From an uncultured Aliterella sp. (GTDB lineage: Bacteria > Cyanobacteriota > Cyanobacteriia > Cyanobacteriales > Chroococcidiopsidaceae), in assembly GCA_905479905.1 (NCBI GenBank), contig CAJQOK010000196.1:1-6422 (forward strand): a stretch of DNA of 6,422 nt. Reading direction: 5' to 3'. This document shows positions 204 through 6,401 of the stretch, piece by piece. The notes below the pieces were generated by a model. That model saw only the letters and a list, made by a program, of their open reading frames with translations. It was not told the origin of the DNA and made no database searches. The translations under genes and the position numbers were made by a program. Positions within the stretch are counted from its first letter, which is position 1, and each line of letters opens with the position of its first letter.

Positions 204-932
204 TCAATCTCCTTGCGGACATTCTTCCCACAATGTAGTTATTTCTCGCAGACTTTGATGATTGCCATTACCCAAAATCAAATGATCTAATAGCGGAATC
301 CCTAATATCTGCGCTCCCGATAATAACTGGCGCGTCAACTCAATATCTTGGGTACTTGGTTCTACACTACCTGACGGGTGATTGTGAGCAACTACAACTC
401 TAGTTGCACCTTGGCGCAGCACCGAGCGAAAAATCTCGCGGGGAGGCGCTAGGGTTTCTGTAGCTGTACCGATGGTAATTACTTGCGTACCTAGCAAACG
501 ATTTTTCACGTCTAATAGCAGCACAGCAAAACGTTCTTGAGATTGCCACATTAAATGTTGACTTAGGGCTGCTGCCGCCTCTGCGGGGCTTTCAATGGGT
601 GTACGATCTAAGGGGCGCGATTGAAAAGCTCGTTTCCCCAACTCTACCGCCGCTAAAATAGTAGTTGCCTTCGCTGGCCCAATCCCATTAATTTGCATCA
701 ATTCTTGAACGCTGACTTCTCGTAAAACTGCCAAAGGATCGCGATCGCACTTGCTTAATTCTTGTAAAATATGTTGCCCCAACCCTACAGCCGAAAGTTT
801 ACCCGCTCCTTGTCCTGTACCTAATAAAATTGCAATTAATTCCGCCGTTGCCAAAATCTGAGAACCGTTAGCTATTAAGCGTTCTCGCGGTCGTTCTGTG
901 GTTGGCAAATCGGCAATTCTTAGGCAGTACAT
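204..932 (-). CDS. radC: RadC family JAB-domain protein
   Basis: Full-length RadC/UPF0758 protein, 242 residues, close to the usual size. The N-terminal part has the RPRERL and LLGTG signatures of the family (residues 14-19 and 36-40), followed by a helix-hairpin-helix-like segment ([12 protein letters not shown], residues 78-89) that suggests contact with DNA. The C-terminal half is a JAB/MPN-type metal-binding domain: the conserved Glu is E133 (SQERF), and the metal ligands are in [14 protein letters not shown], that is H183, H185 and D196 with S193. All ligand positions are kept. Historically called a DNA repair protein, but the original repair phenotype in E. coli was later traced to another gene and the true role is unsettled. 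ATG at 930-932; no clear Shine-Dalgarno sequence precedes it. Monocistronic here, divergent from the large sensor gene. Confidence 0.95.
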
Positions 933-995: not shown

Positions 996-1013
996 TGCTA
1001 AATATAATTAGCA
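996..1013. promoter_or_regulatory. Dyad around a TATAAT in the divergent intergenic region
   Basis: TGCTAA (996-1001) and TTAGCA (1008-1013) form a perfect 6-bp inverted repeat with a 6-nt spacer. The plus strand across the spacer and right arm reads TATAAT (1003-1008), a consensus -10 hexamer, and the minus strand reads TATATT (1001-1006). No good -35 is seen at normal spacing on either strand. The dyad lies about 65-80 bases upstream of radC and 135-150 bases upstream of the large gene, so it could be an operator or a shared promoter element. In A/T-rich DNA it could also be chance. Confidence 0.25.
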
Positions 1014-1073
1014 TCGCGCTTTGTAATCTGAAATATTGATTTATTTGCTTTTCCGTTTAAGTATTTATAACTC

Positions 1074-1101
1074 CAGACAGATGACTTAAATTGACTACAA
1101 T
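1074..1101 (+). promoter_or_regulatory. Candidate promoter of the CheB/CheR hybrid gene
   Basis: CAGACA (1074-1079, four of six bases of the -35 consensus) and TACAAT (1096-1101, five of six bases of the -10 consensus) are separated by 16 bases. Transcription would start near 1108 and give a leader of about 38 bases before the ATG at 1146. A nearby TTGACT at 1091-1096 has no acceptable -10 at the right distance. The match is moderate and unproven. Confidence 0.3.
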
Positions 1102-1145: not shown

Positions 1146-4100
1146 ATGACTTCTGAACAGACTTTTGGTCAATCTAATCATGAAGTTAAGAGTCCACCGC
1201 TTGAGGATAACTTATTTCCCATCGTTGGTATTGCCGCATCTGCGGGTGGACTAGAAGCTTTTATAGAATTGCTGACTCACTTACCCATCGATACAGGAAT
1301 GGCTTTTGTATTGATTCAGCACTTAGCTCCTGACCACAAGAGCTTGCTAACAGAGATTTTAGCGAAAAAGACAAAAATGCCAGTTAGTGAAGTAGTAGAC
1401 GGTGTGATGGTAGAACCAAATCACGTTTACATCATTGCGCCCAATACCAAAATGATTTTGGCTCAAGGAATGCTAAGACTTGCGCCGCGCCAGAAGGTAG
1501 AAGGAAAATATATGCCTGGTGATGCCTTTTTTACATCCTTAGCCGCCGAGCAAGGTAGTAAAGCGATCGCAGTTATCTTATCTGGAGGTGATGGGGACGG
1601 ATCTTCATCATTAATACATATTAAAGCTGCCGGGGGTGTGACTTTTGCCCAGTGTGAAGGAACGGCAAAATTCGACAGTATGCCCAATACTGCGGTAGCC
1701 ACAGGGAATGTAGATTTTATTTTGCCTCCCAAAAAAATTGCGGAAGAACTAGCAAAGCTAGTTCTTCATCCTTTTATTGCTTGCCAACCAACAGCCATAC
1801 TGGTAGAAAATTCTCCGCAAAGCCAAAAAGGTATGCAGCTAATTTTTGCCTTACTCAAATCGTCAACAGGTGTAGACTTTAGCCAATATAAGCTCCCCAC
1901 GATCGCTCGACGAATGCAGCGCCGAATGCTGTTATATAAACTAGAAAAGCTAGAAGATTACGTTCAGTATTTGCAAGACAACGAGGCGGAAGTTAAAGCA
2001 CTGCAAGCGGAAATTTTGATTCATGTTACTGGTTTTTTCCGCGATCCTTTAGCTTTTCAACAGTTGACACAAAGTTTTCCAATTATCACCCAAAACAAAA
2101 CAGCAAATTCACCTATTCGGATTTGGGTTGCTGGATGCTCGACGGGGGAAGAAGCTTACTCGATTGCCATTTGTTTGATGGAATTTTTGGGAGAAAAATC
2201 CCTTAATCTGCTCGTTCAAATATTTGCCACCGATATCAGCGAGACGGCGATTGAACTTGCTAGAACAGGAGTTTATAGCGATTTGCAAATGGTAGATGTT
2301 TCACCAGAACGCCGCGATCGCTTTTTTATTAAGCTAGAGTCTGGTGGCTATCGAATCAGTAAAGCTGTCCGTGAATTATGTGTCTTTGCCCGTCAAGACT
2401 TGAGCAGCGATCCACCTTTTGCCAATTTGGATCTAGTTAGCTGTCGCAATGTGATGATTTATTTGGCAGAGTCGTTACAAAAACAGGTTTTATCGGTTTT
2501 TCATTACAGTCTCAATTCTAAGGGAATTCTGATGCTGGGCAATTCCGAAAGCACTACTCAAAACTCGCAATTGTTTGCTGTAGTTGATAAAAAGCACAGA
2601 ATTTATACGAAAAACTTTGCGGATTTTCCGCAAAGTTTTTCTTTTGTTACTAGCAAATATCCCAGTGCAATAGTAGACAACCCTAAACTTACAAATAACA
2701 ATCCCGCCAATAGTTTTGACTTAGACAAAGAAACAGACAGGTTAATATTAAATCGCTACGCTCCTGTAGGTGTGGTAATCGATGACAAAATGACTGTGCT
2801 GCAAATTCGCGGTGAAACCAGCTTTTATCTCAAACTTTCACCGGGAACCCCAAGTTTTGACCTATTTAAAATGGTACGCAAAGACTTACTTGTTGCCTTA
2901 CGTGCTGCCGTTTATGAGGCACAACGGCAAGATGTGCTGGTGAGAAAAGAGCGGCTAAGATTAGAAAATGAAAGTCGCGTGAAAATAATTAATCTTGAAG
3001 TCATCCCCTTTAAAGATGCGATCGCCCAAAAAAGCTACCTTTTAATTTTATTTACAGAAGTAACACCCGTTAACAAATCCATCCCTGTAAATCGTAAAGG
3101 CTTAGATTTGGGTGAGTTAGAACGTGAAATTAACCTGCTCAGACAAGAACTCGCCATAGCAAACCAAGAGCGAGCGGCGGCAGGTGAATACCTGCAAGCA
3201 GTGACCCAAGAGCAAGAACACACAAATCAAGACCTCAAAATAGCCAACGAGGAAATCTTATCAAGCAATGAGGAGTTGCAAAGTATTAATGAGGAACTCG
3301 AAACTGCCAAAGAGGAGATTCAGGCTACTAACGAAGAACTAAAAACAACCAACGAAGAACTCCGTATTCGCAACTTAGAATTGCACGATGTCAACAACGA
3401 TTTGACAAACTTAATTGCTAGTATTGATATCCCAATTTTAATGCTGACAAACGACTTGCGGGTGCGACGCTTCACCCCAACGGCGCAAAAATTACTCAAT
3501 TTTATTCCTACCGATGTCGGGCGACCCTTTAGAGACATCAACGCCCATCTTGACATTCCTAACTTAGAAGAATTGATTGTAGAAGTCATAAATACCCTTA
3601 AATCCAAAGAGCTAGAAGTTCAAACCGATGGGGGGTACTGGTATAACCTCCATATTCGTCCTTACCGGACTGTAGACAACCGAATTGACGGCGCAGTAGT
3701 AGTATTGATAGACATTAATGCCCTCAAACAGGGTGCTGCACATCTGAAATCTGCCCGTAACTATGCTGAAACCATTGTCGAAACCGTACAAGTGCCGTTG
3801 CTGGTACTTAATTCTGAACTAGAGGTCAAAAAAGCCAATCAAGCATTCTATACAACTTTTCAGATGTCATCGAGGGATACAATCGATTCTTCGATCTTCG
3901 ATTTGGGAAATGGTGAGTGGAATTTTCAATCTCTGCAAGTTCTGTTAGCCGACTTTCTTGCCAAAGATACAGAAATTCAAGGATTTGAAGTAAACCATAA
4001 CTTTGAGCAAATAGGGCAGAAAACTATGCTGCTCAATGCTTGTAAAATTCTGCATGAAGACAGTATTCAACTACTGCTGTCGATTGAGGATATTACTGAG

Positions 4101-5315
4101 CGGAAATTACTCCAATTAGAGCGCGATCGCGCTCTAATTCAGGAGCAGGCGGCGCGCTATACCGCCGAGGTTGCCAACATGGCTAAGGATGAGTTTTTAT
4201 CAATTGTCTCTCACGAATTACGCAACCCTTTAACTGCCATCCTAGGGTGGGTACAGTTGCTCCGCAATCGTGGGTTTGACCAAGCTAAAACTGACCATGC
4301 GCTAGAGACAATCGACCGCAGTGCTAAGGCGCAAAATAAATTGATTGAGGATCTTTTAGAAACCTCACGCATTACCGCCGGGAAGTTTCAACTTAACGTC
4401 AGTGCGATCGCTTTAGCTCCGGTGATTTCGTCGGCTATTGAAATTGCTCGGATATCGGCTAATGCTAAAAACATTGGGATAGAAACAGTGTTTACACCAA
4501 AAACTGTATCGGTATCCGGCGATAGAGATCGCTTGCAACAAATAATCTCGAATCTGCTTACTAACGCCATCAAGTTTACCCCTTCTGGGGGACAAGTGAC
4601 AGTATCGCTCGATTGTACTAGTTTCCTAGCACAAATTCAAGTAAGCGATACAGGTCAGGGCATCAGCGCCGAGTTTCTTCCTTTCGTTTTTGAACGGTTC
4701 CGTCAAGGCAATAGCACCAGCACTCGCTCAGAGGGTGGACTTGGGCTGGGACTTTCAATTGTGGAGCATCTAGTAGGCTTGCACGGTGGTACAGTTAGCG
4801 CCGCAAGTCCTGGCGAGGGTCAAGGAGCAACATTCACAGTCCAGCTACCCCTTTTAGAGACAAGACAAGGAAACAAAAAAGAGATTACTTCCTCTCCTCA
4901 AATTAGCGTGTCGCTTTTAGAAGGATTAAGGGTACTTGTGGTGGAAGATGACGCGGGTTTACTAGAACTTGTAAAAACAATTCTCCAAGAGTATGGAGCC
5001 GAAGTAACAGAAGTTAATTCAGCAAAAAATGCGATCGCCTCTCTTACAAATAATCCTGGAGCCTACGATGTACTATTGTCTGACATTGGGATGCCAAACG
5101 AGGACGGCTACTCGCTCCTGCGTCAGGTAAGAGAACTTAGCCAAGAGTTAGGGGGGCAGATTCCCGCCGTAGCCCTAACAGCCTACGCGCGCGAACAAGA
5201 TCGCACCGAGTCTCTTGCTGCTGGTTTTCAAAGACATATTGCTAAACCAGTGCAGCCAGAGGAATTAGTATCAATTATTGCCGAGCTTGCCCAAATTAAC
5301 CTAGAGACCGAATAA
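1146..5315 (+). CDS. CheB/CheR-PAS-histidine kinase-receiver hybrid sensor protein
   Basis: A soluble 1389-residue fusion with no membrane segment. Order: CheB methylesterase (about 25-207; S32 in ASAGG, H59 in IQHL, D151 in GGDGDG form the catalytic triad; the usual CheB receiver is absent); CheR methyltransferase (about 225-489; TIARRMQRRM helix, SAM-binding WVAGCSTGEEAYS at 327-339, ATDIS with D363, SCRNVMIYL at 432-440); degenerate PAS-like domain (about 530-640); coiled coil (about 655-755) with six NEEL-type heptads; PAS_10-like domain (about 756-860); a further PAS (about 872-985); HisKA with H1023 in SHELRNP; HATPase_c (N box N1136/N1140, DTGQG 1168-1172, GLGLGLS 1198-1204); receiver (E1267/D1268 pocket, phospho-acceptor D1313, T1345, K1367). 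By homology it could demethylate and methylate glutamates and also signal by phosphorelay, but no chemotaxis partners are nearby. The ATG is supported by an in-frame TGA at 1092-1094 and the CheB start at residue 25. Confidence 0.95.
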   Translation: MTSEQTFGQSNHEVKSPPLEDNLFPIVGIAASAGGLEAFIELLTHLPIDTGMAFVLIQHLAPDHKSLLTEILAKKTKMPVSEVVDGVMVEPNHVYIIAPNTKMILAQGMLRLAPRQKVEGKYMPGDAFFTSLAAEQGSKAIAVILSGGDGDGSSSLIHIKAAGGVTFAQCEGTAKFDSMPNTAVATGNVDFILPPKKIAEELAKLVLHPFIACQPTAILVENSPQSQKGMQLIFALLKSSTGVDFSQYKLPTIARRMQRRMLLYKLEKLEDYVQYLQDNEAEVKALQAEILIHVTGFFRDPLAFQQLTQSFPIITQNKTANSPIRIWVAGCSTGEEAYSIAICLMEFLGEKSLNLLVQIFATDISETAIELARTGVYSDLQMVDVSPERRDRFFIKLESGGYRISKAVRELCVFARQDLSSDPPFANLDLVSCRNVMIYLAESLQKQVLSVFHYSLNSKGILMLGNSESTTQNSQLFAVVDKKHRIYTKNFADFPQSFSFVTSKYPSAIVDNPKLTNNNPANSFDLDKETDRLILNRYAPVGVVIDDKMTVLQIRGETSFYLKLSPGTPSFDLFKMVRKDLLVALRAAVYEAQRQDVLVRKERLRLENESRVKIINLEVIPFKDAIAQKSYLLILFTEVTPVNKSIPVNRKGLDLGELEREINLLRQELAIANQERAAAGEYLQAVTQEQEHTNQDLKIANEEILSSNEELQSINEELETAKEEIQATNEELKTTNEELRIRNLELHDVNNDLTNLIASIDIPILMLTNDLRVRRFTPTAQKLLNFIPTDVGRPFRDINAHLDIPNLEELIVEVINTLKSKELEVQTDGGYWYNLHIRPYRTVDNRIDGAVVVLIDINALKQGAAHLKSARNYAETIVETVQVPLLVLNSELEVKKANQAFYTTFQMSSRDTIDSSIFDLGNGEWNFQSLQVLLADFLAKDTEIQGFEVNHNFEQIGQKTMLLNACKILHEDSIQLLLSIEDITERKLLQLERDRALIQEQAARYTAEVANMAKDEFLSIVSHELRNPLTAILGWVQLLRNRGFDQAKTDHALETIDRSAKAQNKLIEDLLETSRITAGKFQLNVSAIALAPVISSAIEIARISANAKNIGIETVFTPKTVSVSGDRDRLQQIISNLLTNAIKFTPSGGQVTVSLDCTSFLAQIQVSDTGQGISAEFLPFVFERFRQGNSTSTRSEGGLGLGLSIVEHLVGLHGGTVSAASPGEGQGATFTVQLPLLETRQGNKKEITSSPQISVSLLEGLRVLVVEDDAGLLELVKTILQEYGAEVTEVNSAKNAIASLTNNPGAYDVLLSDIGMPNEDGYSLLRQVRELSQELGGQIPAVALTAYAREQDRTESLAAGFQRHIAKPVQPEELVSIIAELAQINLETE
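1743..1767. repeat. Perfect 11-bp inverted repeat at the CheB|CheR linker
   Basis: GAAGAACTAGC (1743-1753) and GCTAGTTCTTC (1757-1767) are exact reverse complements around an AAA loop. The element lies inside the large coding region, over residues 200-208 (EELAKLVLH), at the end of the CheB domain. The RNA would form a tight hairpin. The function is unknown. Confidence 0.85.
2609..2645 (+). terminator. Intrinsic-terminator-like hairpin inside the coding region, CheR|PAS linker
   Basis: A 15-bp perfect inverted repeat (2609-2623 with 2627-2641, loop TTT) covers residues 488-499, just after the CheR domain ends at IYTK. The core stem CTTTGCGGA/TCCGCAAAG (2615-2623 and 2627-2635) is preceded by AAAAA (2610-2614) and followed by TTTTTCTTTT (2636-2645), nine T in ten bases. 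That is the form of a rho-independent terminator on the plus strand. Because it is translated, ribosomes following the polymerase would normally keep it from folding. It could cause polarity when translation is poor, or yield shortened CheB-CheR transcripts. Structure is certain; termination is inference. Confidence 0.55.
3246..3371 (+). repeat. Six in-frame 21-bp (7-codon) degenerate repeats encoding a coiled coil
   Basis: Residues 701-742 of the hybrid sensor consist of six successive heptads: NEEILSS, NEELQSI, NEELETA, KEEIQAT, NEELKTT and NEELRIR. The strict seven-residue period with Leu/Ile at the fourth position predicts a parallel coiled coil between the CheB/CheR half and the PAS/kinase half. 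This NEEL-rich signalling helix is characteristic of the CheB-CheR-PAS family. The codons vary between units (GAG/GAA, AAT/AAC), so it is an old repeat rather than a recent expansion. Confidence 0.9.
4114..4139. repeat. 26-bp perfect palindrome centred on HIP1, PAS|HisKA linker
   Basis: The 13 bases at 4114-4126 (AATTAGAGCGCGA) are the exact reverse complement of 4127-4139, with no spacer, and the centre is a HIP1 octamer (4123-4130). It encodes residues 990-998 in the helix between the last PAS domain and HisKA. HIP1 explains only the central 8 bases; the other 18 bases of symmetry are extra. Confidence 0.9.
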
Positions 5316-5581: not shown

Positions 5582-5653
5582 TGGGCGATACTGGACTTGA
5601 ACCAGTGACGTCCTGCTTGTAAGGCAGGCGCTCTACCACTGAGCTAATCGCCC
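5582..5653 (-). tRNA. trnV-UAC: tRNA-Val (anticodon UAC)
   Basis: Read on the minus strand, all four arms close: acceptor GGGCGAT/ATCGCCC (7 bp), D arm GCTC/GAGC with AGTGGTA loop, anticodon arm CCTGC/GCAGG with loop CTTACAA, and T arm ACTGG/CCAGT with loop TTCAAGT. The anticodon at loop positions 34-36 is TAC, which reads GUA valine codons. Variable loop is 5 nt (ACGTC), discriminator base is A at 5582, and no CCA is encoded, so the CCA end must be added after transcription. Length 72 nt without CCA, normal for a class I tRNA. Confidence 0.97.
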
Positions 5654-5744: not shown

Positions 5745-6266
5745 ATGCCGTCAGGTAGAACCCACGATCGCATTACTTTATGGAGTTTACCTATAATTGC
5801 TGGTTGCACCTATCTATTAACTCATAGAAATAGCGATCGCACTTTAATTGTCGCGGGTGCATTTTTATTTAGCGGCTTAATGTTTGGGCCAGACTTAGAT
5901 ATATATTCGGTACAATACAAACGCTGGGGTTATTTGCGGTGGTTGTGGATACCTTACCAAAAAACCTTAAAACATCGCTCTTTTTTTTCTCACGGACTAA
6001 TTATTGGGACGACAGTTAGATTAATATACTTAGCCTTTTGGTTAAGTATAGTGGGAATTTTTGCAGTGGGAATAGCAGAATTATGGGGAGATATAAGTTG
6101 GAATTGGCAATTGTGGGCGCAATTAGCTAAAAAATATACTTATGAATGGATTGCATTGTTTGTTGGCTTAGAGATGGGCGCAATCAGTCATATATTAAGC
6201 GATCGCCTGGGTTCCTTTGTCAAACGCCAGCAGCGAAATAAAATAAAGAAATCGACAAGTAAGTAA
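5745..6266 (+). CDS. DUF2227-type putative metal-binding membrane protein
   Basis: A complete 173-residue protein that begins with the family's own N-terminus MPSGRTHDRIT, which fixes the ATG. Conserved polar motifs are spread between hydrophobic segments: H7/D8, FGPDLD with D50 and D52, the aromatic block YKRWGYLRWLWIPY (58-71), HRSFFSHG with H77 and H83, and ISHILSD with H149 and D153. The regular His/Asp pattern is why such proteins are annotated as metal-binding, but no reaction is known to me. Hydrophobic stretches at about 13-26, 33-48, 85-111 and 133-151 predict an integral membrane protein; the tail (159-173) is basic and probably cytoplasmic. No Shine-Dalgarno sequence is evident. 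It is divergent from tRNA-Val with 91 bases between them and has no operon partner in view. An 8-T run at 5981-5988 lies inside the HRSFFSH codons. Confidence 0.85.
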   Translation: MPSGRTHDRITLWSLPIIAGCTYLLTHRNSDRTLIVAGAFLFSGLMFGPDLDIYSVQYKRWGYLRWLWIPYQKTLKHRSFFSHGLIIGTTVRLIYLAFWLSIVGIFAVGIAELWGDISWNWQLWAQLAKKYTYEWIALFVGLEMGAISHILSDRLGSFVKRQQRNKIKKSTSK

Positions 6267-6315: not shown

Positions 6316-6363
6316 CCTGTCTCCTCCTTATACATACCGCATTGGGAATTGTTCATTGAAATT

Positions 6364-6401
6364 ATTACCAATTACCAATTACCAATTACCAATTACCAAT
6401 T
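6364..6401. repeat. Heptamer tandem repeat (ATTACCA)n
   Basis: Five exact copies of ATTACCA run from 6364 to 6398, followed by a partial ATT (6399-6401). Short tandemly repeated heptamers of this kind are common between genes in filamentous and related cyanobacteria. The array is non-coding in context and ends two bases before an ATG at 6403 that leaves the window. Confidence 0.95.

Follow-up and report, generated by a model that had tools for sequence, protein, structure and literature searches.

Quasipalindrome mutation in Escherichia coli, reportedly described by Dutra and Lovett in 2006, has been measured in reporters, and its rate depends on replication and on single-strand exonucleases. 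In this bacterium an imperfect inverted repeat becomes a mutational hotspot by means of a replication template switch (PMC7202029). In genes of Saccharomyces cerevisiae, template switching between the arms of inverted repeats homogenises the arms and inverts the loops (Abraham and Hazkani-Covo 2021, PMC8604942), and in the inversion table of that paper the loops span 2-5 and the arms 10-16 bp; its SPO75 case flips AA/TT and Lys/Leu. A single template switch can also make a perfect RNA stem or restore its pairing, mimicking a compensatory change (PMC8794818). An excess of inverted repeats has been described in prokaryotic coding DNA, in a paper that reports the template-switch explanation of Ladoukakis and Eyre-Walker and mentions palindromes as avoided by some cyanobacteria and over-used by another (PMC4060949). 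HIP1 (GCGATCGC) is a cyanobacterial repeat (PMC4390886), and we found no literature joining HIP1, cyanobacteria and template switching.

The window analysed here, i.e., the whole stretch of 6,422 nucleotides, is one contig of the genome G000 and carries the gene of a hybrid histidine kinase (Table 1). Three perfect inverted repeats that an earlier note had located in this gene at 1743-1767, 2609-2641 and 4114-4139 (H1, H2 and H3, respectively) are all present exactly at these positions, and they are the sole perfect inverted repeats of the window with arms of at least 9 bases and a loop of at most 20. In our view replication template switching, i.e., quasipalindrome correction, most likely produced H1-H3 and maintained their perfect pairing, and we give this explanation a probability of about 0.76. 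In such an event the polymerase would meet an imperfect hairpin and use one of its arms as template while synthesising the other, so that a single switch would alter several adjacent amino acids together. Loop inversion is another known product of such switches, for which the loops of H1 and H2 are the candidates. We infer the polymerase event, its direction and at least one occurrence per site from the alleles compared below. Template switching does not need the hairpins to have any function.

Table 1. Features of the window and of the kinase gene that hosts the three hairpins (domain limits in residues).
Feature	Position	Strand	Basis
radC-like gene	204-932	-	
CheB-CheR-PAS-PAS-HisKA-HATPase-REC hybrid histidine kinase, 1389 aa, hosting H1-H3	1146..5315	+	ORF, Pfam
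Kinase domains, N-terminal part: CheB 27-202, CheR_N 230-279, CheR 294-484			Pfam
Kinase domains, middle: PAS_10 753-857, PAS_9 885-985, HisKA 1013-1079			Pfam
Kinase domains, C-terminal part: HATPase_c 1125-1236, Response_reg 1263-1378			Pfam
H1 left arm GAAGAACTAGC, apparent template; identical in G004 and G003, one base off in G001	1743..1753	+	
H1 loop AAA	1754..1756	+	
H1 right arm GCTAGTTCTTC, apparently rewritten; substitutions within 1761-1764	1757..1767	+	
H2 left arm GAAAAACTTTGCGGA	2609..2623	+	
H2 loop TTT, same in G001; AAC in G004	2624..2626	+	
H2 right arm TCCGCAAAGTTTTTC	2627..2641	+	
H3, 26-bp perfect palindrome, 13-bp arms	4114..4139	+	
HIP1 octamer GCGATCGC, centre of H3	4123..4130		sequence
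tRNA-Val	5582-5653	-	
DUF2227 gene	5745-6266	+	

The mechanism is already known, and the kinase gene adds to it a bacterial example with three sites. The E. coli work measures quasipalindrome mutation in reporters, whereas here it is read from natural variation. With the yeast genes this locus shares the homogenisation of arms in coding DNA and the joint change of adjacent residues, and the flip predicted for the H1 loop resembles that of SPO75; nevertheless, the inversions tabulated for yeast have DNA of both states on a supported tree, whereas we describe one bacterial gene with flips deduced from protein (PMC8604942). The stems treated in PMC8794818 are functional in RNA genes, while this gene codes for protein and gives no sign that the stem matters. 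The cause proposed for bacterial genes in PMC4060949 is the same, although the part of that paper on inverted repeats offers genome-wide statistics and we follow long repeats allele by allele. Among the matches listed by a search on the topic of template switching and inverted repeats, rather than on the gene name, this kinase gene was not reported.

Orthologous DNA was obtained from G001, G004 (L048), G003, which covers just the N-terminal part, and G005, which covers just the C-terminal part. The G001 sequence is that of L003 (Chlorogloea sp. CCALA 695), which is 94% identical, and the remaining member of the genus, G002, has only a distant homologue. No further close orthologue was found among 19 genomes of the family. 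Beyond the window's own protein, P0002-P0007 (P0005 is recorded as Synechocystis sp. PCC 7509) are 77-92% identical to it, among 120 listed homologues of 7,992 above the threshold. The orthologues align without gaps across H1, H2 and H3 and have imperfect repeats at the same three places, as expected from template switching. Orthologues with no trace of symmetry, which the earlier note had named as evidence against its proposal, were thus not observed. The second mark of template switching, a cluster of changes in one arm, is clear in H1 and weaker for H2 and H3.

Rickettsia-type palindromic elements in proteins are in-frame insertions that are missing from orthologues. The proposal that H1-H3 are inserted elements of this kind, or scars of domain fusion, would account for their placement at domain edges, but it is barely credible in view of the gapless alignments, which reveal no indel or in-frame insertion at any of the three sites, and of the close homologues that have the same set of Pfam domains and lack one or more hairpins. 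Besides, H1, H2 and H3 have no sequence in common when compared by eye.

The clearest case is H1. Its right arm is GCTAAGTATTC in G001, G004 and G003, while in the window it is fully complementary to the left arm, so that 8 of the 11 pairs in these three genomes become 11 of 11 (counted by eye). The gain consists of three substitutions inside four bases of the right arm, each of them completing the complement; three random substitutions among the 22 arm bases would produce a perfect stem with a probability of 2e-4. The three-genome alignment contains three tight clusters of substitutions private to the window, and only the H1 cluster lies close to a long complementary stretch (11 bases, whereas the other two have 4 each). 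The perfect stem is found in one of the four genomes with DNA there. The Val-Leu of H1 is seen again in P0003 and P0004, there with Leu for Lys (EELALLVLHP versus EELAKLVLHP in the window), and the replacement of Ala-Lys by Ala-Leu predicts a TTT loop in these two relatives, i.e., an AAA/TTT (Lys/Leu) loop inversion. The loop states of P0003, P0004 and P0006 are all deduced from translated proteins only. The window residues that follow H1 also resemble those of P0003 and P0004, which suggests an exchange there.

Since the DNA of H1 was found solely in the window genome, and G000 is only 65% complete in 593 contigs, an artefact of assembly or amplification has to be considered. It is very improbable, given that H2 and H3 are present in other assemblies too, that P0003 and P0004, which derive from other sources, also have the Val-Leu of H1, and that the region is colinear with its orthologues on both sides.

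The 15-bp stem of H2 is perfect in the window and in G001, i.e., in two of the three genomes with DNA there; in G004, 11 of its 15 positions are paired (counted by eye). The changes relative to G004 affect both arms plus the loop and not one arm alone. Between the two perfect stems, the pair 2618/2632 is T-A in the window and G-C in G001, and two random substitutions would leave an H2-like stem perfect with a probability of 0.011. The pair-keeping changes are Leu/Phe and Pro/Gln, neither of them silent, and therefore a mutational cause fits them better than selection on RNA does. The Phe and Gln of H2 are seen again in P0006 (NFAENPQ versus NFADFPQ in the window), where the Glu-Asn predicts GAA AAT and thus an AAA loop, i.e., a TTT/AAA (Asp-Phe/Glu-Asn) inversion; this Glu-Asn could alternatively come from the GAA ACT of G004 with one change.

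Such paired changes are also what selection for RNA hairpins would leave, the both-sided differences being then compensatory. The stems would pause ribosomes between domains, as the earlier note had suggested, or H2 would terminate a short CheB-CheR transcript. The predicted stems of -15.8, -21.2 and -21.5 kcal/mol (for each, 0 of 200 shuffles fold as well), the terminator pattern that H2 and H1 fit, the stem pairs of H2 and H3 that differ on both sides, and the presence of H3 in three of the four genomes with DNA there, nearly perfect in one, are consistent with such selection. The stems, however, are not conserved as it would predict: perfect H1 is found in 1/4 and H2 in 2/3 genomes, and, leaving the window aside, H1 is lacking in 3/3, H2 in 1/2 and H3 in 1/3 of the genus genomes. 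The difference at H1 is a cluster of three changes, the pair-keeping changes of H2 alter the protein, and the region has about as many terminator-like matches as shuffled sequence (5 versus a mean of 4.7). Furthermore, no perfect hairpin with arms of at least 9 was found at the H1-H3 sites in the homologues L049, L050, L052, L053, L004 and L005 or in the G000 paralogue. We consider RNA selection unlikely, and ribosome pausing was not borne out.

The 60% homologue L051 (G009:C159) contains one in-frame TAG, and L050, the G010 homologue, has a 22-bp palindrome of its own, ACCAAAAATCATGATTTTTGGT, near codon 361 of the ORF.

At H3, G004 has the identical 26 bp, and its palindrome reaches 34 bp; G005 has 16 of 17 pairs (by eye), with one pair different (T-A/C-G), and counting it, H3 is present in three of four genomes. 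G001 has 10 of 17 pairs, with six bases different from G004 on the left and three on the right. The residues EQQRD are found at H3 in P0002, P0003, P0006 and the 77% relative P0007, suggesting that the imperfect H3 is probably the older state, and Leu-Glu of H3 is seen again in P0004 and P0005. Three-genome parsimony makes the H3 cluster of six substitutions private to G001, i.e., a loss of the hairpin, so that the call of the older state leans on the protein relatives only.

The HIP1 octamer is present in H3 and in neither H1 nor H2. H3 stretches the HIP1 palindrome by 9 bases on each side, unlike coding HIP1 sites generally, since none of the 1,481 coding sites sampled is extended by at least 9 bases. 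HIP1 as a general pivot, an idea that came from H3 and from the hairpins of L098 and L112 described below, was rejected: extensions of at least 4 bases occur at 6 of the 1,481 coding sites, with 8.5 expected. Among HIP1 sites that are not fully coding, 10/319 extend by at least 4 bases (2.6 expected) in the G004, G001 and G000 samples, and 5/319 extend by at least 6 (0.2 expected).

In a gene tree built without the hairpins, the window and P0002 form one pair and P0004 and P0006 another (support 84-89); local trees around the hairpins are poorly resolved. H1, H2 and H3 have three different strain distributions, none of which fits the gene tree, and therefore recurrence or recombination must be added to template switching.

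A functional extension of the same process is quite improbable. The hairpins would be reversible protein switches whose loops flip by replication, changing Lys/Leu after CheB and Asp-Phe/Glu-Asn after CheR. In the same reading, the signalling helix before HisKA would be rewritten and the gene would be a hairpin-templated contingency locus among the strains of the genus. If true, the locus would tune the coupling of the methylation domains to the kinase.

The number of hairpins in the kinase gene is far beyond chance, as had been claimed. Counting arms of at least 11 and loops of at most 20 in its 4,170 bases, there are three, versus means of 0.04 and 0.03 when synonymous codons or the codon order, respectively, were shuffled 150 times each. 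The coding sequence of the genus, taken as crude ORFs, contains 22 hairpins with such arms per about 1,000 kb (1 in 81 kb of G000, 14 in 242 kb of G001 and 7 in 678 kb of G004). None of the 1,065 crude ORFs sampled has two or more of them, and thus the equal density in other genes that would have spoken against the earlier note was not found. The Poisson probability of three in one gene is 1.2e-4, or 2.6e-6 for loops of at most 4 (6 in 1,000 kb), figures that are not genome-wide P values because the gene was picked as striking. In the 800-kb sample of G004, the 7 coding hairpins compare with 5 and 8 from two whole-sample Markov models; hairpins abound in its non-coding DNA (72). With coding hairpins near the Markov level, the kinase gene is an outlier rather than one instance of a general excess; it also follows that template switching is rare or its products are mostly removed, which leaves three sites in one gene unaccounted for.

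The Markov level in G004 agrees with chance, by which independent substitutions in fast-evolving linkers would have completed three quasi-palindromes, with H3 aided by its HIP1 core and its Arg-Asp-Arg codons. The lack of excess palindromic extension at coding HIP1 sites and the selection of this case as a striking one point in the same direction. Even so, three hairpins stand against 0.03-0.09 expected per gene, and no coding HIP1 site among those sampled reaches the extension of H3. Simulated independent substitution at about the observed divergence yielded one new hairpin with arms of at least 11 in 13 of 1,500 runs for G004 and in 10 of 1,500 for G001, and two new hairpins in none of the 3,000 runs. 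Chance is, in our opinion, decidedly unlikely.

Eight other strong coding hairpins were looked up, six of them by search and two (L107) in a G001 stretch. Among the six searched, two had no usable orthologue, one was a dispersed repeat and one had homologues of 68-74% only. A rewritten arm was detected in two of the four other G004 coding hairpins with usable orthologues, those of L098 and L112, while both L107 hairpins have single changes only and no rewritten arm. The hairpin at L098 4941-4962, at a HIP1 site of an EAL/GGDEF gene, has four changes in the right arm and an unchanged left arm relative to G000. That at L112 1471-1507, with 13-bp arms in a PNPase-like gene, has four changes on the left and two on the right relative to G001. 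When L196 and L197 are compared at L098:4941-4962, the G004 right arm matches the left one, and in G001 the left arm instead approaches the right, as if the copying had run in opposite directions. At L112:1471-1507, the cluster of left-arm changes is seen versus both G001 and G005, and the HIP1 octamer lies mostly in the loop.

The alignment of G004 and G001 (126 kb, 84.7% identity) allowed a wider comparison, whose support for template switching is partial. Of the changed stem pairs, 20 of 277 are still paired in inverted repeats with arms of at least 8, versus 2 of 135 in mirror-repeat controls (P 0.009), with gapped repeats excluded (27 of 154 inverted and 3 of 76 mirror) and repeats perfect in both genomes counted twice. 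Rewriting of one arm was not significantly more frequent than in mirror repeats over these 126 kb (18/127 versus 5/73, P 0.09). Exact loop inversion was not found in any of the 75 stems with arms of at least 6 in this alignment, and with arms of at least 4 it occurs in 5 of 955, with no clear excess over the controls (3/950 and 2/990).

H1 comprises residues 200-207, overlapping the last residues of CheB; H2 comprises residues 488-499, well before the next Pfam domain, PAS_10; and H3 comprises residues 990-998, between PAS_9 and HisKA. The three centres are all outside domains and at most 15 residues from an edge, an arrangement with a chance of about 0.035 in the kinase. The placement at domain boundaries is therefore right in that all three hairpins are at edges, although H1 overlaps CheB and 'CheR|PAS' is a loose description for H2. 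In the G000, G001 and G004 samples, 16 of 38 other coding hairpins with arms of at least 10 lie no more than 15 residues from an edge, a mild excess (9.7 expected, P 0.015). The same set contradicts the idea that hairpins are tolerated only in linkers, since 24 of the 38 are centred inside Pfam domains, with 24.0 expected; the Pfam coverage behind these counts is a lower bound because the output gives only the best stretch per family, and the limits were typed by hand. This test started from 58 hairpins with arms of at least 10, located in 52 ORFs that are 450 bases or longer; 48 of these ORFs were run through Pfam, leaving out two repeat-element ORFs, one orthologue of a tested ORF and L135:18325-18885. 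The removal of 10 proteins with no Pfam match above the cut-off and of 3 with unsettled limits yielded the 38 hairpins in 35 proteins.

In six close proteins, 25% of the columns outside Pfam domains are variable and 16% inside, and the hairpin residues, with 16 of 29 columns variable, exceed the rest. The location of the hairpins at linkers is likely due to the tolerance of linkers for several adjacent amino-acid changes at once; linkers are thus probably the place where multi-residue changes survive, as a tendency and not as a rule.

Positive selection or conserved RNA structure is the usual reading of amino-acid changes that cluster in linkers and of stem changes that preserve pairing. Both signals are present at three sites of this one bacterial gene, and a mutation mechanism is the more economical cause. 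The earlier note's common cause for the three sites is in this way supported, but it is none of the three causes it had put forward. If the loop flips hold in DNA, this gene would allow arm copying and loop inversion to be counted among strains as a natural test case in bacteria, and it would warn against inferring RNA structure or adaptation from such patterns.

Some other repeats were noticed on the way. The G004 hairpin at L099:4707-4733 is a short dispersed palindromic repeat around GACGTTGC..GCAACGTC with many copies in G000, G001, G003 and G005, and it is missing from the orthologous place in G003. Within the window, the sequence downstream of the radC-like gene (74-190) contains C and T runs with near-copies, namely CCCCCTTTTTAAG and similar sequences, and a tandem array of ATTACCA-like units is located 3' of the DUF2227 gene (6362-6400).
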